From the NCBI GenBank assembly GCA_013122435.1, contig WYDT01000004.1, positions 372,001 to 436,000 of the forward strand: 64,000 bases of DNA, read 5' to 3'. Numbering within the stretch: position 1 is the stretch's first letter; each line of letters begins with the position of its first letter. The position numbers were made by a program, and so were the translations under genes. Under the pieces are notes generated by a model, which saw only the letters and a program-made list of their open reading frames with translations, was not told the DNA's origin and made no database searches. The DNA is from Chloroflexi bacterium AL-N1. GTDB lineage: Bacteria; Chloroflexota; Chloroflexia; Chloroflexales; Roseiflexaceae. This document shows positions 1-15,112 of the stretch, piece after piece.

Positions 1-737
1 GTTGTCACACAAAGTTTTTCAAGAAAAAAGTCCCCCAGATCGAATAGTCGAATTTCTTTTGCAGATGGTGCTCCAGCAAGCATCGAGCTATAAAAGAGCT
101 TGCGCCGTTCATCAAGGCTGTACGCAAACACCATTTGCAGTTGTTGCTGGACTAAACGTAAATCAATAAAGAGTCTCGGTATAACCGAAAGAATAATCAG
201 TCCTGCCAAGAGAAAATGGAATGATATAAGCGTCCCGATGAAACTTATCAGCGCCACGAGATTTTCCAGAAGTCGTGTTAATGCAGGTAATGTTTCTTGT
301 GCACTACTAAGGGCACCCTGCTCTGCAAGACGAATGGTATCGTAAATCTGCGGGTTCTCAAACGGTGCTAATCCTGACAGATCATTGATTTTGGTATAAA
401 CATCCCGCTGAATTTGCAATTCTAGCCGTCGTCCTAATTCACTCTGTAGATAGGTATTTACTGCAGTCAAGAGTGCCGCGGTTACAGTTATGAGTGCTTG
501 GGCTATCAGAAGTACATAAAGCATTTCTGGTGTTACTGATACTGGATCGGTAAGCCGTAGTGAAAGCCAGTCAAACAGCATCTTGAGAATAAGCGCATTG
601 GCAAGCGGTACAAGACCCTGAAGTATCGTGATGCATAAAGAACCAACGGAAGCTAATGGATACACACGGCAGACCAATGCAAGAATTTGGAAAATAGTAA
701 CAACAAACTTTTGTGACGTTTCGGGTTTAGCGACCAT
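1..737 (-). CDS. ABC exporter, transmembrane domain (partial)
   Basis: This is the N-terminal part, about 245 residues, of a protein running off the left edge. The ATG at 735-737 is preceded by an AAGGA ribosome site about 9 bases upstream. The translation has hydrophobic helices at about residues 12-55 and 72-95, the conserved segment LAPFENPQIYDTI, and then two further hydrophobic helices. This is the order of the membrane domain of ABC multidrug/peptide exporters. The ATPase domain would lie outside the window. There is no C39 leader-peptidase domain at the N-terminus, so any leader removal needs another protease. It is divergent from the ATP-grasp operon, and I infer that it exports the mature peptide. 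Confidence 0.8.
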   Translation of the reverse strand, partial: MVAKPETSQKFVVTIFQILALVCRVYPLASVGSLCITILQGLVPLANALILKMLFDWLSLRLTDPVSVTPEMLYVLLIAQALITVTAALLTAVNTYLQSELGRRLELQIQRDVYTKINDLSGLAPFENPQIYDTIRLAEQGALSSAQETLPALTRLLENLVALISFIGTLISFHFLLAGLIILSVIPRLFIDLRLVQQQLQMVFAYSLDERRKLFYSSMLAGAPSAKEIRLFDLGDFFLEKLCVT

Positions 738-1109
738 ACACTATGTTCCTTCAGGCAAGACAGATGGGAGGAATCATAAGAAAGTCCTATCTTTGATCTA
801 TCTCGCCTGGAGATGATTGGCCTCAATCTATTCCGCACAATCATGCTGAACAACAGAATCAGGCAATAGTATGATTTATAACCTCTCAGTACTGAGGATC
901 GATACAGCCTGTGAATAAACGAGTATAAACAACGATGAACAAAAACAACCTAGTCTAACGCCACATATGTAAGATAAAAACGAATGCGGGACAGTTCCTC
1001 TTGTTGTGCATAAGACAAAAGACAAGGACACAACACAGATACAGATAATACTTGTACTATCTCTGGTTCTTTACAGGACACCTGTATATACAAAGCAGGA
1101 GGTATGCTT
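738..1109. other. Divergent intergenic region, ABC exporter / ATP-grasp operon
   Basis: This stretch of about 370 bases has no credible gene. It lies between two divergent start codons and must hold both promoters. I could not pick a convincing -35/-10 pair on either strand. The only clear signal is the AGGAGG ribosome site at 1097-1102 for the ATP-grasp gene. Confidence 0.5.
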
Positions 1110-2132
1110 ATGAATAAGCAACAGATCATTATTGTGACCCAACAAAACGATCCACATGCCGATGATGTGATCATGAAGTTACGTGAATTGGATCATGAAC
1201 CTATTCGCTTGAATACCGATGACGTTCCGATACATACACTGTTGACATTCGGCATCAGCAATCAAACCAAATCCTGGAATGGTGCAATTACCATTCAGAC
1301 AAATGGTCGTGTCATTGAACCTGATCATATTCAATCTATCTGGTGGCGTCGACCTGGTGCATTTGCATTACCCAAGGAGTTATCAGCACGTGAACGTATA
1401 TTTGCCCAATCAGAGATTGAGCAGGTGCTTATGGGGTTATGGGCATCAGTGGATTGTTACTGGATGAGCCATCCTGACCACATTCGACATGCTTCCTGGA
1501 AAGAGCATCAACTACAACGCGCTGCACAGATAGGCTTCGACATTCCACGAACGCTTATTACGAATGATGCTGCTGAGGCACGTGATTTTTATGAAATATG
1601 TCAGGAGCAGATGATTTACAAAGTGCTCAGTGATCCGTATTTAGGTGCACGTGAACTTGCGTTGCAAGGCGTTGATGAATCAGTCGAGGCTATCGCAACA
1701 AGTACTACATTAATCTCAGAGGAAGAACTCACCTACCTTGACACAATCCGACTTGCTCCATGCCAGTTTCAGGAATACATTCCTAAAAAAACCGAACTGC
1801 GTGTTACCGTTATTGGAGATACGGTATTTGCGGTTGAAATTGACTCACAAGCTCATGAGGAATCACGCATCGATTGGCGAGCGCTGCCCCCCGAAGATCT
1901 CTCATGGCGACAGGTACACTTACCATCAGCACTGGTTGATAAATGTCTCGCCTTTGTCCACAACTATCATCTGAACTATAGTGCGATGGACTTCATTGTA
2001 ACTCCCGATGATCGCTATGTTTTTCTGGAAAACAATCCCAACGGCCAATTTATCTGGGTAGAAATGCTCGTCCCAGAACTACCCATGATTGACACACTGG
2101 CCCACTGCCTTATCCGTGGAGCCAACAGATAA
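1110..2132 (+). CDS. MvdC/MvdD-type ATP-grasp peptide ligase
   Basis: This 340-aa protein belongs to the ATP-grasp family that modifies ribosomal peptides (graspetide synthetases such as MvdC/MvdD, which form ester or amide crosslinks on a precursor using ATP). Visible hallmarks are RLNTDDVP at 34-41, WWRRPG at 78-83, QEYIPKKTELRVTVIG at 221-236, and the metal/ATP-binding end FLENNPNGQ at 305-313. I chose the ATG at 1110 because AGGAGG sits 7 bases upstream. An ATG six bases earlier overlaps the spacing. It is the first gene of a four-gene operon with the SDH protease, MauE-like and TlpA-like genes. The substrate is inferred to be the Cys-rich peptides encoded at 5.5-6.1 kb. The exact bond it makes cannot be told from sequence. 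Confidence 0.85.
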   Translation: MNKQQIIIVTQQNDPHADDVIMKLRELDHEPIRLNTDDVPIHTLLTFGISNQTKSWNGAITIQTNGRVIEPDHIQSIWWRRPGAFALPKELSARERIFAQSEIEQVLMGLWASVDCYWMSHPDHIRHASWKEHQLQRAAQIGFDIPRTLITNDAAEARDFYEICQEQMIYKVLSDPYLGARELALQGVDESVEAIATSTTLISEEELTYLDTIRLAPCQFQEYIPKKTELRVTVIGDTVFAVEIDSQAHEESRIDWRALPPEDLSWRQVHLPSALVDKCLAFVHNYHLNYSAMDFIVTPDDRYVFLENNPNGQFIWVEMLVPELPMIDTLAHCLIRGANR

Positions 2133-2211
2133 GCGCAGCATCCTGTGCAGAACAGGTTTCCTTATCGATGACTTTTTACATTCTGATTGATTAGAGAAAG
2201 GTACCCTTCCT

Positions 2212-3120
2212 ATGACGCCTTTGAGTATACCGCAACTCGCTCAACTGCGAAAACTACGGGGAAATCCTATAATGCTGTACTCTGCGGGAATTGCAGATGA
2301 TAGTATTCCTATCTTCTATGAATGCTTACGACGGGAAGGTCATCCCAAACGGCTAGATCTTATTTTGTCCACATCCGGGGGCAGCATTCTGGCTACGCGC
2401 AGAATTGCGCTGCTCCTACGCGAGTACGTGGAACACCTGACTATCCTGGTACCCTACCGGGCCTGGTCGGCAGGTACATTACTTGGATTGTCCGCAAATG
2501 AACTTGTTTTGGGACCATTATCAGAACTAAGCCCTATTGATGCAAATAATAATTCAGCAAGTATGAAGGCAACAAATGAGCCGTCAAGCGTTTCAGCAGA
2601 AGAAGTTCGCATGTTTCAACAGATGGCTGCAGATTGGTTTGGTGTCACCCGCGACCAGGATCGGTTACAAGTTCTGGCACTCGTTGCCCAACGCTTTTTC
2701 CCCACGTCGCTCTGCGCCATCTATCGCTCGGCACAACTTGTCAATCGCATTGCCAATGAGCTACTGGCCTACCAATTACCCGAAACCAATCCTACTACCA
2801 GACAAAACATTGTGGATCAATTAATCAGCGCATACTATGATCATAACTATCAGATTACACGCCAAGAAGCACGTACACTTGGGTTAAACATTCAGTATGC
2901 TACGCCGGAGGAAGAGCAACTCCTATGGGATATCTGGCAAAAATGCGACACCTTTATTACTCCTGATGCCGCTGACCCTGACCCGGAACGGAATATTATG
3001 GGCATTCTTATGGGGGAGCAATGCTTCGCGCAACTGAAACGTGATTGGAATCCCACATCTCAATGGAGTGATCAAGACAACCCATTCGATGGGCTAAACG
3101 TCACCTGGGAGATGCACTAG
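2212..3120 (+). CDS. SDH-family ClpP-fold serine protease
   Basis: This 302-aa soluble-looking protein resembles the serine dehydrogenase proteinase family (ClpP/crotonase fold, related to SppA). The oxyanion segment LILSTSGGSIL is at 50-60. The putative nucleophile is Ser86 in RAWSAGTLLGLSA, followed by LVLGPLSELSPIDA at 98-111, matching the family pattern SAGT...GP.S.L.PID. No signal peptide or membrane helix is visible. It follows the ATP-grasp gene by 79 bases and precedes the MauE-like gene by 52. Because the exporter lacks a peptidase domain, I infer that this protease may cleave the leader of the modified peptide. The family assignment is firm and the role is a guess. Confidence 0.75.
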   Translation: MTPLSIPQLAQLRKLRGNPIMLYSAGIADDSIPIFYECLRREGHPKRLDLILSTSGGSILATRRIALLLREYVEHLTILVPYRAWSAGTLLGLSANELVLGPLSELSPIDANNNSASMKATNEPSSVSAEEVRMFQQMAADWFGVTRDQDRLQVLALVAQRFFPTSLCAIYRSAQLVNRIANELLAYQLPETNPTTRQNIVDQLISAYYDHNYQITRQEARTLGLNIQYATPEEEQLLWDIWQKCDTFITPDAADPDPERNIMGILMGEQCFAQLKRDWNPTSQWSDQDNPFDGLNVTWEMH

Positions 3121-3172
3121 CAACACTGTATCCTCGAATAATGAACACCATACCACAAGAAAGGAGGATGTC

Positions 3173-3724
3173 ATGACCGAAACTTATAGTATGCTCTTTT
3201 GTCGTACGGCTATTGTGATCGTCTTCACACTGTCAGTTCTCGGGAAAATGCACAATGTAAACGGATTTCGAGAATCAATTATCGACTTCCGGTTAGTGCC
3301 ATCACAGTGGGCAGGCGCAATTGCCTGGGGTTTTCTGATTAGTGAAGCTCTGGTGGTGGTATTCGTGCTGCTTGGTGGCACTGCCTTGCTGATTGGCATG
3401 GGACTGGCAGCCAGTTTGCTGCTGCTATTTGCAGTAGCATTAACGGTTGTTATATGGCGCAAACAGAGGGTGCACTGTAACTGCTTTGGTCGTAATACCC
3501 AATGGGTTTCGCCTTATGATGTGATACGCAATATCGTGCTTATCTGCTGTGCATTGTACGGTTTTGTTCTTGCAAATACAGTAGCAGGCCACAACACTTT
3601 TTCTTTATCTATCGCTGAGATCGTGCTGGTACTGGCAAGTGCGGTTAGTTTCGTTGCTCTTGTAACAAATCTGGCAGATATTATCGAAACACTACGTCAA
3701 CCAATTAATACCGGACAGGAATAA
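3173..3724 (+). CDS. MauE/DoxX-like redox membrane protein
   Basis: This 183-aa protein has four or five predicted membrane helices and the signature CNCFG at about 100-104, just after the third helix. That motif marks the MauE/methylamine-utilisation redox membrane family, which supports disulfide formation in extracytoplasmic proteins, classically with thioredoxin-like MauD. A strong AAAGGAGG site precedes the ATG. The next gene, 12 bases downstream, is a membrane-anchored thioredoxin, which reproduces the MauE-MauD pairing. No methylamine dehydrogenase genes are present. With Cys-rich peptide genes nearby, I infer a role in oxidative folding of those peptides. Confidence 0.8.
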   Translation: MTETYSMLFCRTAIVIVFTLSVLGKMHNVNGFRESIIDFRLVPSQWAGAIAWGFLISEALVVVFVLLGGTALLIGMGLAASLLLLFAVALTVVIWRKQRVHCNCFGRNTQWVSPYDVIRNIVLICCALYGFVLANTVAGHNTFSLSIAEIVLVLASAVSFVALVTNLADIIETLRQPINTGQE

Positions 3725-3736
3725 AAGAGGGTCATC

Positions 3737-4357
3737 ATGGATGATATTATGAGTATCAGTTTCATGCTGTTATGGGTTCTGGTGCTGATTCTGCTGGGAC
3801 TGAATCTACGCATGATTCGCTGGTTTCGAGCTATCGATGAACTACAGAAGAAGGCAGACACTAGTGAGGAGATTGCAGTAGGCACACCGGCACCAGATTT
3901 TCGGGCGCAACTGCTTGATGGAACATCCATATCCTTGACAACTTTTCAGAACCGATCAGTTGCTTTTCTGTTTGTTTCACCAAACTGTGGAGCCTGTCAT
4001 GAAATGATACCTATGTTACTGCGATTGGCACCACTGGCAAGAGAGAATGCACAGGTGGAATTTATGCTGGTGAGCGATGCCGATGTAAATGCAACCAACG
4101 CCTGGATGGAAGCCATCGCCGATGTTCGCAATGTTGTAATTGACCTCCCCATCGTTGTAGTACCTCGTGGTAGCTCTCCCTTATTAGAACTGTATAATCC
4201 ACGTGGATATACGCCTTACTACTGCATAATCGATACCACAGCAATAATACAGGCTCGCGGTTCCATCGGTCGTGATGAATGGCATAGTCTCAGAAAATCC
4301 TGGGAAAAAGGAGCAGCAGGAACAACCTCCACACGATTAGCTCGAAAATATTTATAA
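3737..4357 (+). CDS. MauD/TlpA-like membrane-anchored thioredoxin
   Basis: This 206-aa protein has an N-terminal membrane anchor at residues 5-23 and then a redoxin domain: GTPAPDFRAQLLDG near 49-62, the active site SPNCGACHEM (CxxC) near 80-90, and the cis-proline region YTPYYCIID near 153-161. Orientation suggests the domain faces outside the membrane. In mau clusters the MauD homologue works with MauE to form or isomerise disulfides. Here it closes the ATP-grasp operon, with only 12 bases to the MauE-like gene, and is followed by a hairpin terminator. Its substrate is inferred, not shown. Confidence 0.8.
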   Translation: MDDIMSISFMLLWVLVLILLGLNLRMIRWFRAIDELQKKADTSEEIAVGTPAPDFRAQLLDGTSISLTTFQNRSVAFLFVSPNCGACHEMIPMLLRLAPLARENAQVEFMLVSDADVNATNAWMEAIADVRNVVIDLPIVVVPRGSSPLLELYNPRGYTPYYCIIDTTAIIQARGSIGRDEWHSLRKSWEKGAAGTTSTRLARKYL

Positions 4358-4436
4358 CTATGCATACAGCAGTATGACAAAATACATCACAATAAACACA
4401 TAGGATCAGAATAACTATAAGATTACATTTACCAAG

Positions 4437-4472
4437 AGGATATCTACATCGAAATGTGTGGATATCCTTTCA
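4437..4472 (+). terminator. Hairpin terminator after the ATP-grasp operon
   Basis: AGGATATC at 4437-4444 pairs with GATATCCT at 4461-4468. The stem extends inward by several more pairs, including wobbles, around a short loop, and TTT follows. It lies 80 bases after the thioredoxin stop codon. Confidence 0.6.
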
Positions 4473-4579
4473 TCCATTCAAACTTTAACTATATTAACGT
4501 CAGTTCGGGATACAGGGCACACTTTTCAGCTACGCTATGGGTACTGAAACCAAACGCATTCCGAAAAAGGAGCCCCCAT

Positions 4580-5370
4580 GAGAGGGCTCGACTGCTTGTA
4601 CGCTGTCGATGATGTTTGTCAAACAGTTGACCCACATGGCATGCGCCGTGTGATCTGAGCAGCGCAAAACAGCACTATCGTGCACGAGAACGTGCGTTGT
4701 GTGCGGTTATGACCAGCTTAATGCTGTTCTATCAGGCCCGCTAGCACACCTGCAAAGCATTCTATCCAGCGCATGGGTGTCAACATCTACACCATGCTCC
4801 AACCCTGCTCAGCTATACGCGCTTTGTCCCGTTCTTTCCTCCCACACACGTGCCGTTAGGAGTCTCTCTGCACTCGTGTTTAGGGGATGTACGGGTAGCT
4901 CCTGTGTCGATGCCACCACATTGGCAGTCTGTCACCATCGGGCTTGGAGCACGGCACGCATTTCGTGGCCAGACGTCAGATGGGTCATTCTGGGGCTTCA
5001 AGTTGCATCTCATAAGAAATCACTGTGGAGAGGTGTTGAACTGCAAGCAATTTGACAACAAGGACGCTCGTTTGCCCCGCTGCCACAACCACGGCACTGC
5101 TACTTTGGGGTCGAGTTGATTACGCTGCGTCGCAACGACATCCCAAGACACGACCTGCCACTTCTGGACAGGATGTGGCGACGCCAGCGGACGATTATTG
5201 AGACGATTATCGACCAACTGAGGCACATCCACAGACTGCACATACACGGCATCACCGTACCAATACCTTCCTGATCCATCTAATCCGTAGGCTGTTTGCC
5301 TTACTGGCATCAACCCAAGCAGCCATATGTGTCAGTCGAGCAATTGCCGCCAGTACTGCGGGCTTAAACC
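4580..5370 (+). mobile_element. IS982-family transposase remnant
   Basis: Broken pieces of an IS982-type DDE transposase lie in several + frames. LDCLYAVDDVCQ near 4588 matches the family N-terminus. CVDATTLAVCHHRA near 4905-4945 is the first-Asp region. FWGFKLHLIRNHCGEVL near 4990-5040 is the core. RRTIIETIIDQL near 5185-5220 is the Glu region. Multiple frameshifts and gaps show it is dead. I could not identify terminal repeats. It separates the modification operon from the two precursor genes, so an insertion and decay event has split the cluster. Confidence 0.7.
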
Positions 5371-5420
5371 GAACTGACGTTACATCATTAGGTTGCTTCC
5401 GATATGTCTATAGAAACCAG

Positions 5421-5454
5421 AAGTATGCCCAGCACAGAAGTGCCGGGCATACTT
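5421..5454 (-). terminator. Hairpin after precursor peptide A
   Basis: A 15-bp inverted repeat with one mismatch (arms 5421-5435 and 5440-5454, 4-base loop) lies 37 bases downstream of the precursor A stop codon. There is only a short T stretch after it on either strand, so it may be a weak or bidirectional terminator. Confidence 0.5.
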
Positions 5455-5490
5455 TTGCTCTAACAAGCCACTCACAAGTGGAAGAAGCAC

Positions 5491-5724
5491 TTACTTATCA
5501 CATTTGTGGCCACCAAAAAATTGTGTACCAAATGTTTTACAATAATTATTAGGACCAGTCAAGCAGTTTAAGCGACCCCAGAATCTATATGAACATTTTG
5601 CTGCCAGACCCGGTTGATCCGCATGCTGCCAGACTTGAGTATCGGGATCATAGGAATTTGTACCACTATCGATATCATCTACTTCAAGCGATTGAGCAAC
5701 ACGAAAGCCAAATAACGTAGACAT
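5491..5724 (-). CDS. Cys-rich RiPP-like precursor peptide A
   Basis: This 77-aa peptide has a perfect AAGGAG site 7 bases before its ATG. It shares an N-terminal half with the peptide encoded just upstream: MS, then F-x-F-R/K-V-A, a shared acidic stretch, YD near 25, QVWQ at 30-33, and AA-K/R-C-S/T-YR at 41-47. The C-terminal half differs between the two but keeps four Cys (here C44, C54, C62, C75) and ends KCD. A conserved leader and variable Cys-rich core are the usual layout of RiPP or bacteriocin precursors. The nearby ATP-grasp, redox, protease and ABC genes support this. I know of no named family for it. Confidence 0.7.
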   Translation of the reverse strand: MSTLFGFRVAQSLEVDDIDSGTNSYDPDTQVWQHADQPGLAAKCSYRFWGRLNCLTGPNNYCKTFGTQFFGGHKCDK

Positions 5725-5825
5725 TATCTATCTCCTTGTAATAACTAATTATAGTCATTCACAAAAATCAAGTTGTGTTAAAACCACAGATCAACTGCCA
5801 TCTATTCACTAAGGTAATGGGGTAA

Positions 5826-5859
5826 TTGATCCGAGAGGTGTCAACACCTCTCAGATCAA
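5826..5859 (-). promoter_or_regulatory. Long hairpin between the two precursor genes
   Basis: A 16-bp inverted repeat with one mismatch and a two-base loop (arms 5826-5841 and 5844-5859) sits between precursor B and precursor A on their coding strand. No T-run follows on the minus strand, so a simple terminator is less likely than an attenuator, a processing site, or a structure stabilising the upstream mRNA. Confidence 0.5.
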
Positions 5860-5902
5860 ACTCTATAAAGTAAGAGCAAGTAGATAGCTGCGACCGATAA
5901 CC

Positions 5903-6139
5903 TTAGTCACATTTTGAACTTGCTGGTGCAAGAAACCAGGGTGCTGGCAGAGTGACACAACGAACGACATTGTAACACTTCCTTGCTGGAATCATTGGTC
6001 TATAAGTACATCGAGCTGCTACAGATGTATCCTGTCCCTGCCAGACCTGTGCTTCGACATCATACTGACCCTCTGGTTGGTTATCGGTTTCTTCGACGGA
6101 CACGGGATGGGCTACCTTAAAAGCGAACATGTTAGACAT
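5903..6139 (-). CDS. Cys-rich RiPP-like precursor peptide B
   Basis: This 78-aa peptide is a paralogue of the 77-aa peptide downstream on the same strand. I start it at the ATG of 6137-6139 because AAGGAGG lies 6 bases before it. A longer reading frame upstream has no ribosome site. The leader shows FAFKVA at 5-10, QYD at 25-27, QVWQ at 31-34 and AARCTYR at 41-47. The core has C44, C55, C61 and C77. Several acidic residues (EE at 16-17) are in the leader rather than the core, unlike most graspetides, so the ATP-grasp product may be unusual. The gene pair is likely transcribed from the 6140-6325 gap. Confidence 0.7.
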   Translation of the reverse strand: MSNMFAFKVAHPVSVEETDNQPEGQYDVEAQVWQGQDTSVAARCTYRPMIPARKCYNVVRCVTLPAPWFLAPASSKCD

Positions 6140-6179
6140 ACCTTGCCTCCTTAATGACAACTATTGATTATCGTTTCTG

Positions 6180-6230
6180 TCCGATCGGATGAATATACTA
6201 TACGATATGCCTGTCTCTTAACTGTCGCTT
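6180..6230 (-). promoter_or_regulatory. Possible promoter of the precursor genes
   Basis: On the minus strand TATAGT (6197-6202) is a fair -10 box about 60 bases upstream of precursor B. The position 17 bases further upstream has no good -35 sequence, which would fit an activator-dependent promoter. A perfect 10-bp palindrome, TCCGATCGGA, sits at 6180-6189 between the -10 box and the gene. The 1337-aa regulator upstream is a candidate activator. Confidence 0.3.
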
Positions 6231-6325
6231 TACGAATACTGCTGCGTGGATCCATTCCGCAGATTGATATGTATACCATAACAACATATCTTTTTAATAA
6301 TTTATGTTGTATCCATTACAGAGCA

Positions 6326-9300
6326 CTAGGCATCCGAAGACGGATTTTGACTGTCATGATCAGTTTGCTGCACGATGAAACGAAATAAATGTGCATCTTC
6401 CTGTTCTGCTGCTGGTTGCCGGATATGCTGCTTTCTGGCCTTATTACAACGAGACGTCGAAAGTGTTGGATCTTCCCGACGTAACAGAGCGAGATCCTGC
6501 TCAACAGTACGTTGACCAACACATAGCGCTTCCGCCAGATGTTTTGCGGTAGGAATCGCACCCTGAGTCAGTGCTTCCTGTATTAAACGACGTATACGAA
6601 AGCGCCGACATGCTATCGAATCAGTCATACCCTGATCATCGGGTGCGCGAATCGTCCAGGATACAGTCGTTTGTTCATCATCACGCAACGCCCGTCCGGT
6701 AGGTGCATCAATGCGAGGTAGCACCACTTCAATCTTTTGTGGCTGATAAGCTTCCCATTCCATCACAATAGTGCGATATTCTGGGACATTAGTTACGCTG
6801 GACTGGTAACATGCTGGCGAAAGTCCTGCCAGACATCTCATCAGGGCAGTATATGCCTGTTCAAGCGCCTGATACGCTTGAGCAAAGTTACCTGTGACGC
6901 ACAATACACAATAGTGTGCATAGCACAATTGATAATGTATAGTTTGATCGGATGATACATAGGACATATGCTTTTCTATACGCGCAAGCGCTGCTTCTGT
7001 TTGATTCAGTGCCAGAAGAATATGGCAACGCACTGCCGCCAGGCGAGACCACCAGGGTGTATATGCTCCGTCTTTACATATCGCATCAGCAGTGTCTGCA
7101 TACTCCAGTGCTGCTTCATATTGTCCTGCATCCAGAACAAGTTGTGCCAGTAGCAGATAGGCAAAGAGGTGCGACCATTGACCATAGATACCGATAGGAG
7201 CATGGACTGCCTGGGTAAGATACCTGCAAGCCACATCTCGATTACCTGCATGGTAAGCCAGTGCCCCCAACACAGCATGGCACATTCCGGCAAGATGGAG
7301 ATCATCTGTTTTGTTGATGTAATCCCATATCTGTTCGATATGATGTTGTGCTTGACCGTACATGCCTAAGTAACAACAATGCACAAAGGCGGTGTTCAAA
7401 TGACTCCAGGCAAGCAGTACGGGACATGCCTCCTGACTAATACAATTCCATACTGCTTCACTATAGGTGAACGCCTGACTCACCTGTTCTTGCAGAAAAC
7501 ACGACCAACCACACCAGACAAGAATCTGATGTTCGAGAGCACTATAATCATACGTTTGAGCCATATTCAATGCCCTTTGATAGCATTGGTTCGATTCAGT
7601 AAATTGGTTTTGGGAACAGGCGATGCGTCCTTGTATGAGCAGTGCTTCGGTAAGGGCATATTTCTCATCGAGGTGCTCATATAACACAAGCGCAGTCTTA
7701 CTGTGATAGTCTGCTTGAGAGAGCAGTTGCATAGAGAAGTACAGGGAAGCCAGGGCATTATGGACATGGGCTTCATGTGTTTTAGACAGAGTATTACTGT
7801 TCAAACACTGATCAAGCATAGTTTGCTGACTCATTATCGTCTGAAGCGATGCATTGCGCCAGCAGACAATGCGCGTGAGCGTTGTTACGACCATAATATA
7901 CACCTCCCTATCCTGATCTCCTGTTATTCCTGCCATAATTGTCTGTGCCAGGTCTCCAGCCTCATCAAATCGACCACACATCGCAAGCAACCGTATGCGA
8001 CGTGACTGTATATACCTCATCTTTTCTGGAGCATTACGACAGACACCTTCCAGAAGACTCAGATACTGCTCCTGTCGGTGAAAGTGACCAATTTCGTGTG
8101 CAATGGTGTCATATGTGAGCAGGGTCACAAAGAAGGTTTGCTGATCGAACACCGTATGACCACTTTGCACCAGTGCCAGTGCCGATCGCACATAAAACTC
8201 GGCTGTCAAGGGATATCCACAGGAATAGGCATGCTCACCCGATAACAACAGATATTTAGCGGCCAGCTCCCATACCTGGCCTTGCATAAAATGATGTGCT
8301 AATAGCTCATACTGTTCAATGCCTATAGCACTCAATGCCTTACCTGCACGACGATGAAAGACAACTCTTCGATCAGCGCTTATATGCTCATACACAATAT
8401 GTCGTAACATCGCACAAGGAAAACAATAGCCTGCGACCGTTTCAATGAGTAACCGTTGTTGTACAAGTTGGTTCAGGTAACACAGAGCAGTACTGGTATC
8501 CAGATTACACACTGCCATTAAAACTTTAAAAGGACAGGGTTCTTCTAAAATAGCCATAGCGTCGAGCACACGCCGTATAGGTGGAGGTAAATCAGTGAAA
8601 CGCCGTGTCAGAAGTTGTCGTATGCTTGATGACAGGATCTCTTTTTCAAGAGATTTGATAGTATGTTGTTTTGCAAGTTGCCACAGACCTTGTTCATTGA
8701 TCTGCAGTAGTTGCTGATGATAACACTCGTAAAGAAATTCAATAATAAACAAGGGATTCCCTTGACTTACATGGTATACGCCTTGTGCAAAAGTAGGGTC
8801 AGGTTTTCCAAGATATTTTTGAATGATTTCGCCTGTTGCAGCACTATCCAGACGAGTTAATTCGATATGTACGCTGTGAACACCACGCACTAGTTGTTGC
8901 AACTGTTTCCATAATGATGAGTACCTCAATATATCTTCACAACGATATGCGCCAATAACAACCACAGGATCGTGACACAAATGATCGTGAAAATAGCTTA
9001 AGGACTGCCATACCTTGACATTCACCAGTTGCAGATCATCCAAAATAAGGACGAGGGGTCTGATACGCGACCATGCAGCAAGTAAATGTGCCAATAGTAT
9101 ATATAAAGGTGCTCGTTTGCGAGAAGCAGTATGTGGTAACCGTTCTGTCTGATCCTCTTCCAAGATAGGAAATATCGTGCATAGTATATTCATATACTCA
9201 ACTGGTATAAGACTCGCTAATTGTTCCGCTCGCAAGGGTGTTAACCCCTGTGCAATAGCATCAATAAGCACAGCATAGGGAGAATGTGTATTGGAGGGTT

Positions 9301-10339
9301 TGCCTCTCCCCCATAATACATCTGCACCGCGCCACTGGAGATCTTTCGCAATCTCGCGTATCAACCGACTCTTGCCAACTCCTGCTTCACCCTCAATTAA
9401 CACTATCTGTCCCGTACCTTCAAAAATGCACTCTAGCCATCGTAATAATTGACTGTGTTCATTTGTCCGATGAATTAATGGCAGATCATCCGCAGACTCA
9501 GCGAGTAAAGGACGCTGTACACGTTGAAGGGCTTCAATGTCAGGAAGATATGCGTCCGAGCAACGTTTTGATCTACGTAGAATGTCATCTTTCAGAACAA
9601 CCGTAACTGCATCAGGTCCTAATCCCAATTCTGTGTCAAGCATACGACAACATATGTTGAATTGTTGTAGTGCATCTTCAATCCGTCCCAGTAAACTGTA
9701 CAGACGCATGGCTTCGCAATAGTACTCTTCATGCAAGGGATCAATGCGTAGTAACTGCAATACGCTATCAAGCGCTGCTTCAAAGCGTCCTGACGCCTTT
9801 TCACTAGCTAAAAGACGTTGCAACGTCAAACGATATTTCTCACGCAAACGTTCACGTTCAATTAACACCCAATCATCATAGAAATCTTCTAATAAATCAT
9901 GCGAATAAAGCTGGCAGGCTTGCCGGAGCAATGCAACCTGTGATCGATCTATGACAGGCATGTTGAGCAGTGGATCGACCAGTGACTCGAACAGATGGAC
10001 ATCGATCCATACTGCTGTTTCAGGCTGTATATATAGCGTTTCGTGATCAGACTGAATAAGATCAGGTATATGGCGACGCACGTGCCAGAGCACCTGACTT
10101 AACTTACGGCGCGCCTGATGTTCAGGTAAGTCAGGCCAGAATATACCAATAAGATATAAGCGTGTATGCTTTCTTTGTGCATGAAGCAATAGATAAGCTA
10201 ACAGGGTCTGGGCAGCTAAAGATGTCGGTAGTGTAAGCGAGGTATGGTTGCATTGCAGTATAAATGGTCCAAACAGATGGAAATGGAGCGTAGGCACCCT
10301 ATAATCCTGATGTTGATGGATGCTATGTTTCTGTATCAT
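6326..10339 (-). CDS. BTAD/AAA-ATPase/TPR transcriptional regulator
   Basis: This 1337-aa regulator has an OmpR-like winged-helix region at about 20-95 and a bacterial transcriptional activation domain at about 115-265. A predicted ATPase follows, with P-loop GEAGVGKS near 315-325 and Walker-B-like LVLILDDLQ near 435. A long helical TPR region ends in a second helix-turn-helix, PTAKHLAEALCVGQRT at 1263-1278, then a basic Cys/Lys/Arg tail. GAGGTG precedes the ATG. It resembles SARP/LAL-type pathway regulators that control secondary-metabolite clusters. It is encoded upstream of and on the same strand as the two precursor genes, so it is a good candidate regulator of the peptide cluster. Confidence 0.8.
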   Translation of the reverse strand: MIQKHSIHQHQDYRVPTLHFHLFGPFILQCNHTSLTLPTSLAAQTLLAYLLLHAQRKHTRLYLIGIFWPDLPEHQARRKLSQVLWHVRRHIPDLIQSDHETLYIQPETAVWIDVHLFESLVDPLLNMPVIDRSQVALLRQACQLYSHDLLEDFYDDWVLIERERLREKYRLTLQRLLASEKASGRFEAALDSVLQLLRIDPLHEEYYCEAMRLYSLLGRIEDALQQFNICCRMLDTELGLGPDAVTVVLKDDILRRSKRCSDAYLPDIEALQRVQRPLLAESADDLPLIHRTNEHSQLLRWLECIFEGTGQIVLIEGEAGVGKSRLIREIAKDLQWRGADVLWGRGKPSNTHSPYAVLIDAIAQGLTPLRAEQLASLIPVEYMNILCTIFPILEEDQTERLPHTASRKRAPLYILLAHLLAAWSRIRPLVLILDDLQLVNVKVWQSLSYFHDHLCHDPVVVIGAYRCEDILRYSSLWKQLQQLVRGVHSVHIELTRLDSAATGEIIQKYLGKPDPTFAQGVYHVSQGNPLFIIEFLYECYHQQLLQINEQGLWQLAKQHTIKSLEKEILSSSIRQLLTRRFTDLPPPIRRVLDAMAILEEPCPFKVLMAVCNLDTSTALCYLNQLVQQRLLIETVAGYCFPCAMLRHIVYEHISADRRVVFHRRAGKALSAIGIEQYELLAHHFMQGQVWELAAKYLLLSGEHAYSCGYPLTAEFYVRSALALVQSGHTVFDQQTFFVTLLTYDTIAHEIGHFHRQEQYLSLLEGVCRNAPEKMRYIQSRRIRLLAMCGRFDEAGDLAQTIMAGITGDQDREVYIMVVTTLTRIVCWRNASLQTIMSQQTMLDQCLNSNTLSKTHEAHVHNALASLYFSMQLLSQADYHSKTALVLYEHLDEKYALTEALLIQGRIACSQNQFTESNQCYQRALNMAQTYDYSALEHQILVWCGWSCFLQEQVSQAFTYSEAVWNCISQEACPVLLAWSHLNTAFVHCCYLGMYGQAQHHIEQIWDYINKTDDLHLAGMCHAVLGALAYHAGNRDVACRYLTQAVHAPIGIYGQWSHLFAYLLLAQLVLDAGQYEAALEYADTADAICKDGAYTPWWSRLAAVRCHILLALNQTEAALARIEKHMSYVSSDQTIHYQLCYAHYCVLCVTGNFAQAYQALEQAYTALMRCLAGLSPACYQSSVTNVPEYRTIVMEWEAYQPQKIEVVLPRIDAPTGRALRDDEQTTVSWTIRAPDDQGMTDSIACRRFRIRRLIQEALTQGAIPTAKHLAEALCVGQRTVEQDLALLRREDPTLSTSRCNKARKQHIRQPAAEQEDAHLFRFIVQQTDHDSQNPSSDA

Positions 10340-10645
10340 GGTTTCACCTCAATATGTGCTGGTCAAGGTTTACATCCATAGATTCATCTATGGTATGTCT
10401 ACCAGATCGTATGGAGATGTAGTGCTGCACCCCCGCAAAGAACGGAAGAGAGGCTTCGACGAAAAGAGAGGTGCGTATGTATCATCTGTATGCAGCTAAT
10501 AACACCGTCACAATATATTTTCTTAACACACTTAATGTTGATAATATCAAAACACATCTACACTATTGAGATCAAGTTAAAAAGTGTCATAAAAAGTGCC
10601 ACAAAATCAACAGTAAAAAATGATATACTTTAATCTGGAGGATTT
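10340..10645. other. Divergent intergenic region between two large regulators
   Basis: About 306 bases separate the BTAD regulator (minus) from the XRE/NB-ARC regulator (plus). I see no gene here. The end nearest the plus-strand gene is AT-rich and carries a -10 box and tandem repeats, described separately. Confidence 0.6.
10579..10629 (+). promoter_or_regulatory. Promoter with tandem 12-bp repeats
   Basis: Two adjacent 12-mers (10579-10590 and 10591-10602) share AAAAAGTG followed by T/C-C-A, matching at 10 of 12 positions. They lie about 21 bases before the -10-like TATACT at 10624-10629, where a -35 box would be expected but is poor. A direct repeat overlapping the -35 position suggests an activator or repressor site, perhaps for autoregulation by the XRE protein encoded just downstream. 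Confidence 0.4.
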
Positions 10646-13276
10646 GTGACGCCCAGAAAGGTTACCTTGTCTCTGCATACATTTGGTCAACAACTACGAC
10701 AGTATCGGAAAGCGCACAAGCTTACCCAGGCGACTCTGGCACACCAGGCCGGGTGTGCTGTTTCAACCTTGCGCCACATAGAACATGATCGCCTCCGCCC
10801 TTCACGGCAACTGGCCAAACGACTGGCACACTGTTTCAACCTTGACCCTGATGAGCAACACCGTTTTGTGCAGGCGGCTCGACACGTGTCTCCGTCGAAA
10901 GAAAATACCCGACCTGTGCCCCTACCGCCCCCACCCACTATCCCGGTACCACTCACCCCACTGATCGGGCGTACTGCCGAACGCGCAGTGATTATGGATC
11001 TGTTGCGCCACTCTACCGTACCACTACTCACACTGACTGGTATTGGAGGGGTCGGCAAAACACATCTGGCACTTCAGATTGCCCATGATGTACAGACTGC
11101 ATTTACTGATGGTGTCTGTGTCATTGATCTGGTGGCCGTACATAATCCTCAGTTACTCCTGCCAACGCTTGCTCAGAGCCTGGGCGTGCCTCAAACACAT
11201 GCTCACCATATCTGTAAGCAACTCCAGGCTTACTTACGAACAAAAAGACTTTTATTAGTATTAGATAACTTTGAGCATCTTGTTACAACTGCCACGGTAC
11301 TGTCAGATCTGCTCCACGCAGTACCACAGTTACACATGCTGGTTACCAGCCGAGTACCGCTGAACATTCCTGAAGAGCATCTCATCACGATTGAACCATT
11401 AGCGGTCCCCTCCTCAGCAACAGAGTTGACTCATGACAACATCGTGCAGAGTCCTGCGGTTCAATTGTTTGTCACACAAGCTCAGGCCATTCAACGGCAT
11501 TTTGTCCTGACACCACAGAATAGTGCTATCGTTGCTGCTATTTGCACCAAGGTCGCTGGTATTCCGCTTGCATTGGAACTGGCAGCCGCCCCCCTATCAG
11601 TTTTTTCTCTGGAAGACATCCTGCACTATTTGGAACAACCGCTGCGGTTCCTGAGACATGGACCACATAACGTACCAGACCATCAGAGAAGTTTGCACGC
11701 CACCATAGCATGGAGTTATCACCTGCTGAAACCTGCTGAACAACTACTCTTTGTACGATTAGCCATATTTGCAGGTGAATGGACCCTGGATGCAGTCGAG
11801 CACATTTGTGGCGGGAATCGTACGATGACAGAGCAATGTGATGATGACCACGCTATCCCCCCACTGGAGATCGCTCCAATTGATGGGGTAGCCGCATTGC
11901 TCGATAGTCATCTGATTCTGAGCACGACAACGGTTGATGGTGAAGTGTATTTTAAGATGCTGGTTCCCATTCATCATTATGCTCAGGAACGCTTACAGGG
12001 CCACGAGGCCGCTGTGCTGGCCGCACGGCACACCGCCTACTATCTGGCGCTGGCAGAGCAAGCCGCTTCAGAATTGACCGGAGCCAACCAGCAGGTCTGG
12101 CTGGAGCGGCTGGACGTGGAGTATAACAACCTGCGAGCCGCATTGCACTGGGCCATCGTCCAGCTGCACCCGGAACAGGCACTCCGTCTGGGAAAGGCAC
12201 TCTGGCATTACTGGTATGCGCGGAGTTATCTCCAGGAGGGCTGTCACTGGCTGGAGCAGATTATCGCCCTGGAAGCGGCACCCTCAGCACCTACATATGC
12301 CATGGTTTTAAATCGCTATGGCATATTACATTCGTTGCAAGGAAATCTTGTAGACTCCCAGAACTATCTCGAACAGAGTTTAGTAATAGCACGTCAGTTG
12401 AACGATCAATACACACTTGCGTCGACACTCAACAGTCTAGGAATAATAACGCGCTATCAAGGGGCGTACGATGATGCCATACGCTATCTCGAAGAGAGTC
12501 TGGGACTATATCGGCCTGATGACAATCCTTTAGGGAAGGCATACACACTGAATAATCTAGGTCTTGTCTTGCAAGCACAAGGGCAGTTTGCCTCGGCACT
12601 GGAGCAGTATGAGGCCAGTAAGCTCATCCATCAGGAACTGGGCAATCAGCTTGGGGTGATGAAAGCGCTGAGTAACACAGCCATTGTTGCCTGGCTCCAA
12701 GGTAACCATCTCCAGGCTCATCAACTATTCTCAGAAGCCCTTCAACTGGCACGTGATCTGAAAAATACCGAAGGAATCACCTCTTGCCTCACTCATCTTG
12801 GTAAAGTGGCGATCAGTCAGCAGGATGTTACCACGGCTCAATCTTATTTCTTAGAGAGTTTACACCTTCTGCAAGATCTAGGTGAACTCCAACTGGTGAT
12901 AGATTACCTGGAAGGGGTTGGTGGGGTCTTTGCGATGTGCGATCAGCCATTGATTGCCGCATATCTGTGGGGAACCGAGGCGACCCTCCGTACCACGATT
13001 CACAGTATCAGATCACCTTCCGAAACCCCATTTTACGAGCAGCTGGTAGCGGCAGCACGACACCAGGCGAGTTCAGTTGATTGGGAGGCTGCATGGGCAA
13101 CCGGACAAACGCTTACCATATATGATGTAATGGCTATGCTACCAAAACTTGCTGCATTGTTGAGAATATCTGACGATCAACCTGCTCCCGACTACAACCA
13201 GTTTGCGTCACTCATCAGCGCAAATCTGCATCATCAACCTATCACAGGTATAACCAACATTCATCATGAACTATGA
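10646..13276 (+). CDS. XRE-HTH / NB-ARC ATPase / TPR regulator
   Basis: This 876-aa protein combines an XRE helix-turn-helix at about 12-70 (LRQYRKAHKLTQATLAHQAG...STLRHIEHDR), a proline-rich linker at 90-106, and an NB-ARC ATPase with P-loop GIGGVGKTH at 132-140 and LLLVLDNFEHL near 205-215. A TPR superhelix runs from about 530 to 760. The GTG start has GGAGG closely upstream. Such fusions are signal-transducing regulators in which nucleotide and TPR ligand binding gate DNA binding. Its target is unknown. The next gene, 10 bases downstream, is a decaying paralogue, so the pair arose by duplication. Confidence 0.8.
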   Translation: MTPRKVTLSLHTFGQQLRQYRKAHKLTQATLAHQAGCAVSTLRHIEHDRLRPSRQLAKRLAHCFNLDPDEQHRFVQAARHVSPSKENTRPVPLPPPPTIPVPLTPLIGRTAERAVIMDLLRHSTVPLLTLTGIGGVGKTHLALQIAHDVQTAFTDGVCVIDLVAVHNPQLLLPTLAQSLGVPQTHAHHICKQLQAYLRTKRLLLVLDNFEHLVTTATVLSDLLHAVPQLHMLVTSRVPLNIPEEHLITIEPLAVPSSATELTHDNIVQSPAVQLFVTQAQAIQRHFVLTPQNSAIVAAICTKVAGIPLALELAAAPLSVFSLEDILHYLEQPLRFLRHGPHNVPDHQRSLHATIAWSYHLLKPAEQLLFVRLAIFAGEWTLDAVEHICGGNRTMTEQCDDDHAIPPLEIAPIDGVAALLDSHLILSTTTVDGEVYFKMLVPIHHYAQERLQGHEAAVLAARHTAYYLALAEQAASELTGANQQVWLERLDVEYNNLRAALHWAIVQLHPEQALRLGKALWHYWYARSYLQEGCHWLEQIIALEAAPSAPTYAMVLNRYGILHSLQGNLVDSQNYLEQSLVIARQLNDQYTLASTLNSLGIITRYQGAYDDAIRYLEESLGLYRPDDNPLGKAYTLNNLGLVLQAQGQFASALEQYEASKLIHQELGNQLGVMKALSNTAIVAWLQGNHLQAHQLFSEALQLARDLKNTEGITSCLTHLGKVAISQQDVTTAQSYFLESLHLLQDLGELQLVIDYLEGVGGVFAMCDQPLIAAYLWGTEATLRTTIHSIRSPSETPFYEQLVAAARHQASSVDWEAAWATGQTLTIYDVMAMLPKLAALLRISDDQPAPDYNQFASLISANLHHQPITGITNIHHEL

Positions 13277-13286
13277 GGTGGCTGCA

Positions 13287-14618
13287 ATGGCATCGATGTC
13301 ATTTGGACAACTCGTACGCCAGTACCGCAAAGCACGGGATCTCACCCGCGTAAAATTTGCCGATCAACTGGGCTATGCCACCTCAACCCTGCGCCATATT
13401 GAGAATGATACGTTACAACCATCTCAGCATCTGCTTAAACGACTCTGTGTTGTCTTACAGATGTCACCTGAAGAACAAGCACTACTGCTGCGTACAGCAC
13501 AAAACACTACACCTATTGATATTACACATATCGCTCCAGCACTAGTTCCTACCAATCTCACCACCACCATCCCTCTGGTGGGACGCGATGAAGATATGAT
13601 TACTATCAATGACCTGCTGCACCAACCCGAAGTCCGCCTAATCACATTGACAGGTGTGGGAGGTGTCGGGAAAACCAGTTTGGCCAGACAGATCGCAACC
13701 CAGATAGTGCCAGACTTCGCGGATGGAGTCTTTCTCATTGATTTAGACAACCTATCTGATTCGCAAATGCTCGTCCCGAGTATCGCACGCGTAATGGGTA
13801 TTGGAGCACCGTATACATCAATTTCAATAACCGACCTGCACACCTATCTGTATCATAAACATGCGGTGTTGATCCTGGATAACTTTGAAAAATTCCTTAC
13901 AGCAACCACCCTGTTAACAGATCTGCTCCAGCAGGTTCCCTATCTCCGTCTGCTGGTAACTAGTCGCGTTCGCTTACATATCAAGGGTGAACACGTAGTT
14001 TTGGTAAAGCCCTTCACGGTTCCTGAGCTTGATCGATTGCCTTCCCTTGAGTCCTTGATCACCATGCCAGCAATCACACTATTTGCGAATCAGGCACAGA
14101 TTGCACAACCAACCTTCGCTATTACAGCCACCAATGCAGAACTGGTTGCCAGAATCTGTGTACGAGTTGCCGGAATACCACTGGCATTGAAAGTAGTTGC
14201 GTCCCGTTTGACAACCATGTCTCTGGAACAGATTCTCACATCGCTTGATCAACATCATCAGTCGGGTAATACCATTTCTACATCTAGCCTGTTGATGGAA
14301 ACTGGTATGCGGGATGCCCTTGATTGGAATTATCACAATCTAGATTCAACCAGTCAATCCTTATTTATGCAGGTAGCACTTTTTGCTGATGAGTGGACCA
14401 TGGAAGCACTGGAAAGCATCGTGATACGTCCAACATCAGTGAGTCACCAGCACCAGACAGATCATTGGCTCCTGCTTAAACACCTAACCATGCTGTGTGA
14501 GGCACATTTAGTACAATCAATAACCCTTCCAGATGGAAGCACACGCTTTTTCATGCTTGAACCTATTCGTGATTATGCGTTGGAACGAGGAAGACAACAC
14601 CTCACACAAGAGAAATAG
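13287..14618 (+). CDS. XRE/NB-ARC regulator paralogue, truncated by nonsense
   Basis: This is the N-terminal part, about 443 residues, of a paralogue of the preceding regulator: XRE domain (LVRQYRKARDLTRVKFADQL, STLRHIENDT), P-loop GVGGVGKTS, and VLILDNFEKF. I start at the ATG of 13287 because GAGGTG lies 8 bases upstream. An ATG at 13266 overlaps the previous gene and has no clear site. A TAG at 14616-14618 ends the frame. The same frame continues as recognisable TPR sequence to about 15107 with two more stops. The truncated product would have HTH and ATPase but no TPR sensor, and is likely non-functional or mis-regulated. Confidence 0.7.
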   Translation: MASMSFGQLVRQYRKARDLTRVKFADQLGYATSTLRHIENDTLQPSQHLLKRLCVVLQMSPEEQALLLRTAQNTTPIDITHIAPALVPTNLTTTIPLVGRDEDMITINDLLHQPEVRLITLTGVGGVGKTSLARQIATQIVPDFADGVFLIDLDNLSDSQMLVPSIARVMGIGAPYTSISITDLHTYLYHKHAVLILDNFEKFLTATTLLTDLLQQVPYLRLLVTSRVRLHIKGEHVVLVKPFTVPELDRLPSLESLITMPAITLFANQAQIAQPTFAITATNAELVARICVRVAGIPLALKVVASRLTTMSLEQILTSLDQHHQSGNTISTSSLLMETGMRDALDWNYHNLDSTSQSLFMQVALFADEWTMEALESIVIRPTSVSHQHQTDHWLLLKHLTMLCEAHLVQSITLPDGSTRFFMLEPIRDYALERGRQHLTQEK

Positions 14619-15112
14619 CGTAATCGACACGCTGAATTCTATCTTATACAAACCGAACAAATTGTCACATCTCGTAACACTACCACCTCAGAATACTGAG
14701 CTGACCAGCTTGAGTGTGAATATGCAAATATACGGGTAGCATTACAGTGGATCATTCAAAATAACAAGTGTGATCTGGCTGCACGCTTTAGGACAACACT
14801 GTGACATTTTTGGCATGTGCAAGGATATGTGCATGAAGGACGCAAATGGATGGAGCAGATCTGTCATTTGGCAGAGGATATCTGCTGGCAGCATTGCGCC
14901 CCTTTGTGGTTAGGTACTGGTGTTCTGGCATTGTATCAGAAGGCATATGGTCTGGCTCACCAATGTCTGATGCAGAGTCTTGAGTTGTGGTATTACCTCG
15001 ATGATCACCATGGTATTGCCATCACCCTCGAAAAACGGGGCATTCTGGCCACCGCACAAACCAACTGGGAAACCGGTCACCGCTCCCTGCAGGCCAGCCT
15101 GGACTACCGTAT
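14619..15112 (+). pseudogene. TPR region of the broken XRE/NB-ARC paralogue
   Basis: Reading on in the frame of the upstream gene gives clear TPR-region sequence (RNRHAEFYLIQTEQ, LECEYANIRVALQW, GYVHEGRKWMEQI, GIAITLEKRG), interrupted by TGA at 14697-14699 and 14802-14804. No frameshift occurs over the whole 1.8 kb. Both TGA codons fall where the intact paralogue has Trp (WLERLD and LWHYW). The homology stops abruptly near 15107, where an antisense peptidase S51 fragment begins, so a rearrangement removed the C-terminus. Confidence 0.7.

Follow-up and report, generated by a model that had tools for sequence, protein, structure and literature searches.

Gene content of the window

Which product is made by a locus in which a graspetide-type ATP-grasp ligase, a ClpP-fold protease, a redox pair and short Cys-rich genes stand side by side? 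This question is raised by a stretch of 64,000 nucleotides from Chloroflexi bacterium AL-N1, which is referred to as the window (G000:C5:372001-436000; G000 denotes its source genome of 8.16 Mb). All parts that the original prediction had named from the sequence were recovered at their positions by means of a list of open reading frames and family scans. The N-terminal membrane part of an ABC exporter is encoded on the minus strand (1..737). The gene extends past the window edge (contig positions 370839-372737), comprises 632 residues with an ABC_tran domain, and lacks a peptidase domain. Homologues of this exporter exist in two further loci of the same genome (L008 and L009), and the end of an exporter gene was seen in a locus from another genome (L107).

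Four genes follow on the plus strand. The first (1104..2132) codes for an ATP-grasp ligase of 342 residues, which was assigned to the graspetide type on the basis of family profiles, catalytic residues and its clade. It matches PF21068 with an E-value of 9e-15, which is above the cut-off; the matches to TIGR04187 (1e-76, 258 bits, curated cut-off 350) and TIGR04184 (7e-68) stay below the curated cut-offs. Its best solved structural relatives are 5ig9, 5ig8 and 7mgv. The second gene (2212..3120) codes for a ClpP-fold serine protease of the SDH type with 302 residues and no membrane helix (SDH_protease, PF01972, E 1e-15, 57.6 bits against a cut-off of 31.3), which is the candidate leader peptidase. 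It is followed by a MauE-like membrane protein with four hydrophobic segments and a CNCFG motif (3173..3724; PF07291, 6e-24), and by a TlpA/MauD-like redoxin of thioredoxin fold with a CGAC motif and an N-terminal membrane anchor (3737..4357). The remnant of an IS transposase (4699-5274, DDE_Tnp_1_3 in two split frames) separates the TlpA gene from the precursors.

The two precursor genes lie on the minus strand. Precursor peptide 1 (5491..5724) has 77 residues and consists of a Cys-free leader (approximately residues 1-43) and a core with four Cys, CSYRFWGRLNCLTGPNNYCKTFGTQFFGGHKCDK. Precursor peptide 2 (5903..6139) has 78 residues, a Cys-free leader as well, and the four-Cys core CTYRPMIPARKCYNVVRCVTLPAPWFLAPASSKCD. 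The predicted pair of short paralogues with four-Cys C-termini is thus present; only the start of peptide 2 had to be revised, which is the ATG at 6139 and not at 6160. Each gene is preceded by a clear ribosome-binding site (AAGGAG and AAGGAGG, respectively). A terminator-like hairpin of 15 pairs with a weak T tail is located just 3' of precursor 1 (5421..5454, minus strand). The adjacent gene for a BTAD-AAA16-TPR regulator (6326..10339, minus strand) had been counted among the set. It was dismissed as a defining part, because the window's genome contains 17 BTAD matches; the regulator is outside the recurring set.

Recurrence of the cassette in Chloroflexota

The cassette is real and recurring. 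It comprises one or more Cys-rich precursors, a graspetide-type ATP-grasp ligase, an ABC exporter, a ClpP-fold SDH protease, MauE and TlpA. Complete or partial copies were found at seven loci in five genomes, which rules out a chance grouping of unrelated genes. Three of these loci belong to the window's genome, where the two further ATP-grasp genes of the cassette type are both located in cassettes. L008 (C8:254000-272000) contains a precursor (7588-7896), the ligase, an exporter, SDH, MauE, TlpA and a DsbA-like protein with a CAAC motif; three more precursors are encoded on the opposite strand. L009 (C8:280000-298000) contains a precursor, the ligase, an exporter and SDH, with MauE and TlpA on the opposite strand. 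Two other cassettes, whose ATP-grasp, SDH, MauE and TlpA genes are likewise whole, originate from Ktedonosporobacter rubrisoli (L039) and from a metagenome-assembled genome (MAG) of the Ktedonobacteraceae (L040). No exporter was seen near the MAG cassette, and that of K. rubrisoli looks broken.

In these five cassettes the genes for ATP-grasp, SDH, MauE and TlpA are all complete; two partial cassettes were detected in addition. L062 (G116:C1, 155-2921) has a whole precursor and a whole SDH gene. Only the C-terminal part of its ligase was seen, and neither a whole MauE nor a whole TlpA gene was seen there, MauE being apparently reduced to its end; the locus therefore seems to be a decayed copy. 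L107, which was found by an SDH profile search, lies on a short contig (G423:C724) with two precursors, TlpA, MauE, SDH and the exporter end; its ligase would be located past the contig end. The DsbA-like protein of L008 (10923-11588) occurs in this single cassette only and distantly matches the Rcas_1661 family of thioredoxin-like (seleno)lipoproteins.

Among 400 Chloroflexota genomes searched, 38 contain a related ATP-grasp gene. SDH, MauE or TlpA genes were found near none of the 37 graspetide-type ATP-grasp loci outside the cassettes, of which 32 span at least 10 kb and some are from close species and hence not independent. SDH searches in the order of the window's genome (82 genomes) and in the class of K. 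rubrisoli (47 genomes) indicate that the cassette is rare and patchy. A scan of GTDB contigs added nothing to the two Ktedonobacteria loci already found. The neighbourhood search bears out the predicted association: homologues of the peptides were never seen without the cassette, and the genes for ATP-grasp, SDH, MauE and TlpA repeatedly occur as a set.

Conserved leaders and diversified Cys-rich cores

All 12 precursors have the leader motif M..LFAFNV...G.YD...Q.WVG in common. Taking the first Cys as the start of the core, as a cleavage site is not visible in the sequence, the 490 leader residues contain no Cys whereas the 529 core residues contain 73. The number of Cys is even in 11 of the 12 precursors; the exception is the one from K. 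rubrisoli, which has five. A leader profile, which precursor 1 of the window matches with an E-value of 6e-17, identified ten genes with E<1e-7 in the 400 genomes, and all ten are in cassettes. The remaining four matches are weak and represent noise; three of them are within very long frames. For the precursor pair of G423, the codon differences are 13 synonymous and 5 non-synonymous in the leader as compared to 9 and 20 in the core. The leader is therefore held fast while the core diversifies, which is the usual picture for RiPPs. A comparison of the core domains with Pfam and NCBIfam gave no match.

The precursors beside the other ATP-grasp genes of Chloroflexota are classical ones: their tails are rich in Thr and Asp, and Cys is scarce or absent. 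These features, and the missing SDH, MauE and TlpA neighbours, exclude an ordinary graspetide as the full account of the cassette. Several of the classical precursors carry an element that resembles the cassette leaders, F.F...YDP.TQ (for example PFGFHY...GYYDPYTQV or YDPTRQ). Two cassette leaders give weak matches, at E 0.019 and 0.053, to PF14404 ('Strep_pep', described as 'Ribosomally synthesized peptide in Streptomyces species'). The matches from a PF14404 scan of whole genomes stay below the family cut-off, and the two weak matches are therefore a hint. Any homology of the cassette leaders to known graspetide targets is weak.

Two of five full-length ligases have lost six catalytic residues

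In a phylogenetic tree, the five full-length cassette ligases are separated by one branch from 33 others (support 99/98), and by this topology they share a common ancestry. The ligase of the window has retained K173, R233, D257, R259, D296, E309 and N311. Six of these residues (K173, R233, D257, R259, D296 and N311) are invariant in the 33 others. The ligases of the window, L009 and K. rubrisoli retain all six, whereas those of L008 and L040 have none of them. As judged from what is established on the fold, the lost residues include the ATP-binding lysine, substrate arginines of the active site and metal ligands. The two altered ligases, from the window's genome and the Ktedonobacteraceae MAG, respectively, group as sisters (100/100) and share a long stem. 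The loss is unevenly distributed: 11 (L008) and 10 (L040) of the 13 conserved N-terminal positions are kept, whereas in the C-terminal ATP-grasp part only 13 and 12 of 31 are. For comparison, the intact ligases of the window, L009 and K. rubrisoli keep 29, 27 and 28 of these 31 positions.

This loss of ATP- and metal-binding residues in two of the five full-length ligases is an addition to the first reading of the locus. As both genes stay open and in cassettes over long distances without these residues, they probably have a non-catalytic role, for which leader binding is the obvious candidate. The earlier claim that the ATP-grasp enzyme modifies the peptide has accordingly to be restricted. 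Crosslinking by the ligase of the window is plausible and more probable than not, given its intact catalytic residues; modification by ATP-grasp is no constant of the system, since two cassettes have lost six of them.

One may go further and assume that the ATP-grasp protein is throughout a leader-binding escort, which hands the precursor to the protease or the exporter without forming any crosslink, so that disulfides are the sole modification. The frames of L008 and L040, still open after 0.5-1.0 changes per site on their branches, and the better conservation of their N-terminal positions agree with this assumption, as do sister MauE/TlpA peptide systems that lack any ligase. We nevertheless consider it unlikely, because the three intact ligases, those of the window, L009 and K. 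rubrisoli, retain the catalytic residues, which argues for selection for catalysis in these cases.

A candidate link site

Outside the loci with a known dead ligase, the first and the last Cys of the cores tend to be flanked by residues that could be linked, which also adds to the first reading. A Ser or Thr immediately follows the first Cys in six of seven such cores (expectation from shuffled sequences, 1.4), and an Asp immediately follows the last Cys in five of seven (expectation 0.4); note that this C[S/T]...CD pattern was spotted post hoc and in few, partly paralogous sequences, so that its p values should be read with caution. With one core per locus, the counts are 4/5 and 3/5. The five cores from loci with dead ligases contain the Ser/Thr in two cases and the Asp in none. 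The pattern fails in L009, where the last Cys lacks a following Asp, and in G116. A nucleophile that precedes the acid is the usual order in graspetides (PMC13418204).

Possibly, then, the intact synthetase closes the core by one ester flanking the first and the last Cys, and the L008/L040 branch represents a selected, non-catalytic leader-binding escort; we put this combination forward tentatively.

MauE and TlpA as a putative disulfide module

A MauE protein with a C.CFG motif and a neighbouring membrane-anchored TlpA with a CxxC motif are encoded in the five cassettes with whole enzymes and in L107. The predicted disulfide bonding of the product is supported indirectly, namely by the confinement of all 73 Cys to the cores, by their mostly even number and by the presence of MauE and TlpA in each complete locus. 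The products of the cassette are therefore likely to be disulfide-rich.

Further MauE/TlpA pairs, which had not been part of the first reading, appear to serve other families of Cys-rich peptides. The window's genome contains ten MauE genes, seven of which lie outside the cassettes, and most of these seven occur with TlpA beside other Cys-rich products. A second Cys-rich system is encoded in L144 (G000:C3:267001-283000, 4127-7862) and in L145 (G000:C2:42001-58000, 7469-12473), whose exporter is very close to that of the cassette (1e-203). This system consists of several paralogous peptides with 6-9 Cys and the shared leader DRLFAKI.D...LLSR.AP, MauE, TlpA and an S26 peptidase. A fusion of an S26 signal-peptidase with a redoxin/TlpA domain is encoded beside MauE/TlpA and Cys-rich peptides in L147 (G116:C44, 5553-6518) and in L150 of K. 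rubrisoli (11527-12576). Moreover, Tat-like proteins with an SRR.FL motif and 8-16 Cys adjoin MauE/TlpA pairs (L141, 6646-7005; L146, 5458-5859 and 6381-6767; L148, 1194-1499; L152, 8859-9287). Because it is found beside these other Cys-rich families, the pair seems to be a shared disulfide module. Peptidase and exporter occupy equivalent slots in the sister systems; the type of the window is marked by ATP-grasp and SDH.

TlpA-like proteins can also act as reductants, as is the case for CcmG/TlpA. The ATP-grasp ligase might thus crosslink the peptide while MauE and TlpA keep the Cys reduced or act elsewhere, the Cys themselves being destined for metal binding or thioethers; Cys of some graspetide precursors have indeed been proposed as thioether donors (PMC8939145). 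However, neither a radical SAM nor another thioether enzyme is encoded in the cassettes examined, the Cys numbers are mostly even, and equivalent MauE/TlpA pairs adjoin the Tat-like Cys-rich proteins. In addition, disulfide formation has been attributed to MauE in the case of methylamine dehydrogenase, according to work cited in PMC7794033. A role of the Cys other than in disulfides is thus very improbable.

The SDH protease

The SDH proteins of the cassettes form a tight group. Eight close homologues are known (E<=1e-98); none of them deviates at S86, D110 or H211, and all are encoded beside Cys-rich peptides or proteins. In the next tier (E ~1e-46 and weaker), none of nine loci is adjacent to Cys-rich products; distant SDH genes occur in unrelated contexts, which rules out SDH as a general RiPP protease of Chloroflexota. 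Sequence searches found no SDH protein in the PDB and, in plasmids, nothing beyond generic SDH proteins with 28% identity. AlphaFold models based on three-sequence alignments reached a mean pLDDT of 49 and 41 only, and a Foldseek search with the low-confidence SDH model gave SppA and ClpP as best matches, none of them at E<=0.001; these models carry no weight in the argument.

It is probable that SDH is the leader protease, judging from its constant presence, the invariant residues S86, D110 and H211, and the S26 peptidase in the corresponding slot of the sister systems. Rather unlikely, in our view, is a role of SDH in immunity or clearance with the leader being cut by another host protease. 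The precursors show no obvious cleavage site, SDH proteins with housekeeping roles are widespread, and proteases near graspetides may be resistance genes (PMC13097080), all of which would fit such a role; the close SDH subfamily is, however, tied solely to peptide cassettes (8/8), and its slot is taken by an S26 peptidase in the sister systems.

The eighth close SDH gene belongs to L106 (G000:C2:454001-474000, 6788-10701), where it lies beside the ATPase part of an exporter, whose membrane part is seemingly missing, and where no ATP-grasp gene was found. A protein of 284 residues with a Cys-rich hydrophobic tail, which we take to resemble halocin C8, adjoins this SDH gene. The same locus encodes a protein of 103 residues (14509-14820) that weakly matches NF038399 (Os1348-family NHLP RiPP leader, E 8e-4), with response-regulator and ABC genes nearby.

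Proposed pathway and relation to known systems

We favour, with moderate confidence, the view that the window contains a graspetide-derived cassette for secreted disulfide-rich peptides, in which the Thr/Asp-rich core has been swapped for a Cys-rich one; we infer the chemistry, the order of steps, the cleavage and the activity from the gene content. The ATP-grasp protein would first recognise the leader that is common to several different precursors. Where it is intact, as in the window, it would then join side chains by an ester or amide link, or by a few of them. The most likely partners are the Ser/Thr beside the first Cys and the Asp beside the last Cys, so that the ends of the core would be stapled together. 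Next, SDH would cut off the leader. This step would take place in the cytoplasm, since a membrane segment was predicted in none of four SDH proteins tested. The peptidase-less ABC exporter would move the core out of the cell, where the membrane-bound TlpA, re-oxidised by MauE, would close two to four disulfides.

The cassette resembles graspetide systems (TIGR04187/SAV_5884 type; microviridin MvdC/MvdD, MdnC, CdnC) in its homologous ATP-grasp enzyme, the adjacent precursor and a putatively related leader, as Chloroflexota relatives have a YDP..Q element. It differs from them by a core that is Cys-rich instead of Thr/Asp-rich, by the constant presence of MauE, TlpA and SDH, and by the dead ligase in two loci. 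The type of the window may thus be a kind of graspetide, and one branch may have left that kind. As in methylamine dehydrogenase maturation by MauD/MauE, a MauE fold with a redox motif is found next to a TlpA/MauD-like partner; here, however, the likely substrates are small peptides, and no mau structural genes were seen nearby.

The original prediction that no described class has this set holds for the open papers searched, within which the cassette is, as far as searched, undescribed. It needs qualification with respect to decRiPPter, which flagged both MauE families and, as a separate group, ATP-grasp families in Streptomyces (PMC7794033). The MauE candidates, one of them with MauD, stand beside predicted precursors with at least eight Cys, and a precursor-modifying role was proposed for them. 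The main text of that paper describes them without ATP-grasp or SDH, and our comparison is one of descriptions. The graspetide surveys PMC8939145 and PMC13097080 mention neither MauE nor disulfides nor Chloroflexi, and the latter does not mention cysteine. Partner-dependent graspetides are exemplified by rosaritide, whose synthetase is of the TIGR04187 type, and corallotide; like the cassette, they combine a synthetase with constantly co-occurring proteins, but these are a PPIase or an oxygenase (PMC13097080). A serine proteinase is encoded nearby in over half of the group 9 graspetides (PMC13097080); it could be an SDH protein.

In stryphnines, which are knottins from sponges, a Ser and a Glu are joined by a side-chain ester (PMC13418204), which means that the proposed type of product exists. 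They share with it the disulfide core and the side-chain ester with the Ser first and the acid later. The likeness is one of product type only, as stryphnines are animal-derived and no ATP-grasp enzyme was found for them (PMC13418204).

If the proposed pathway is correct, side-chain ester staples and disulfides are joined in one genetically encoded peptide, and one leader serves very different cores, a property that is sought by peptide engineers. With the dead ligases of L008 and L040, nature itself offers a way to examine if the modifying enzymes of RiPPs double as leader escorts. With MauE/TlpA as a general disulfide module for unrelated Cys-rich families of Chloroflexota, such peptides would become findable by their neighbourhood. 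The window's genome is expanded both in BTAD (17 matches) and in MauE (ten genes).
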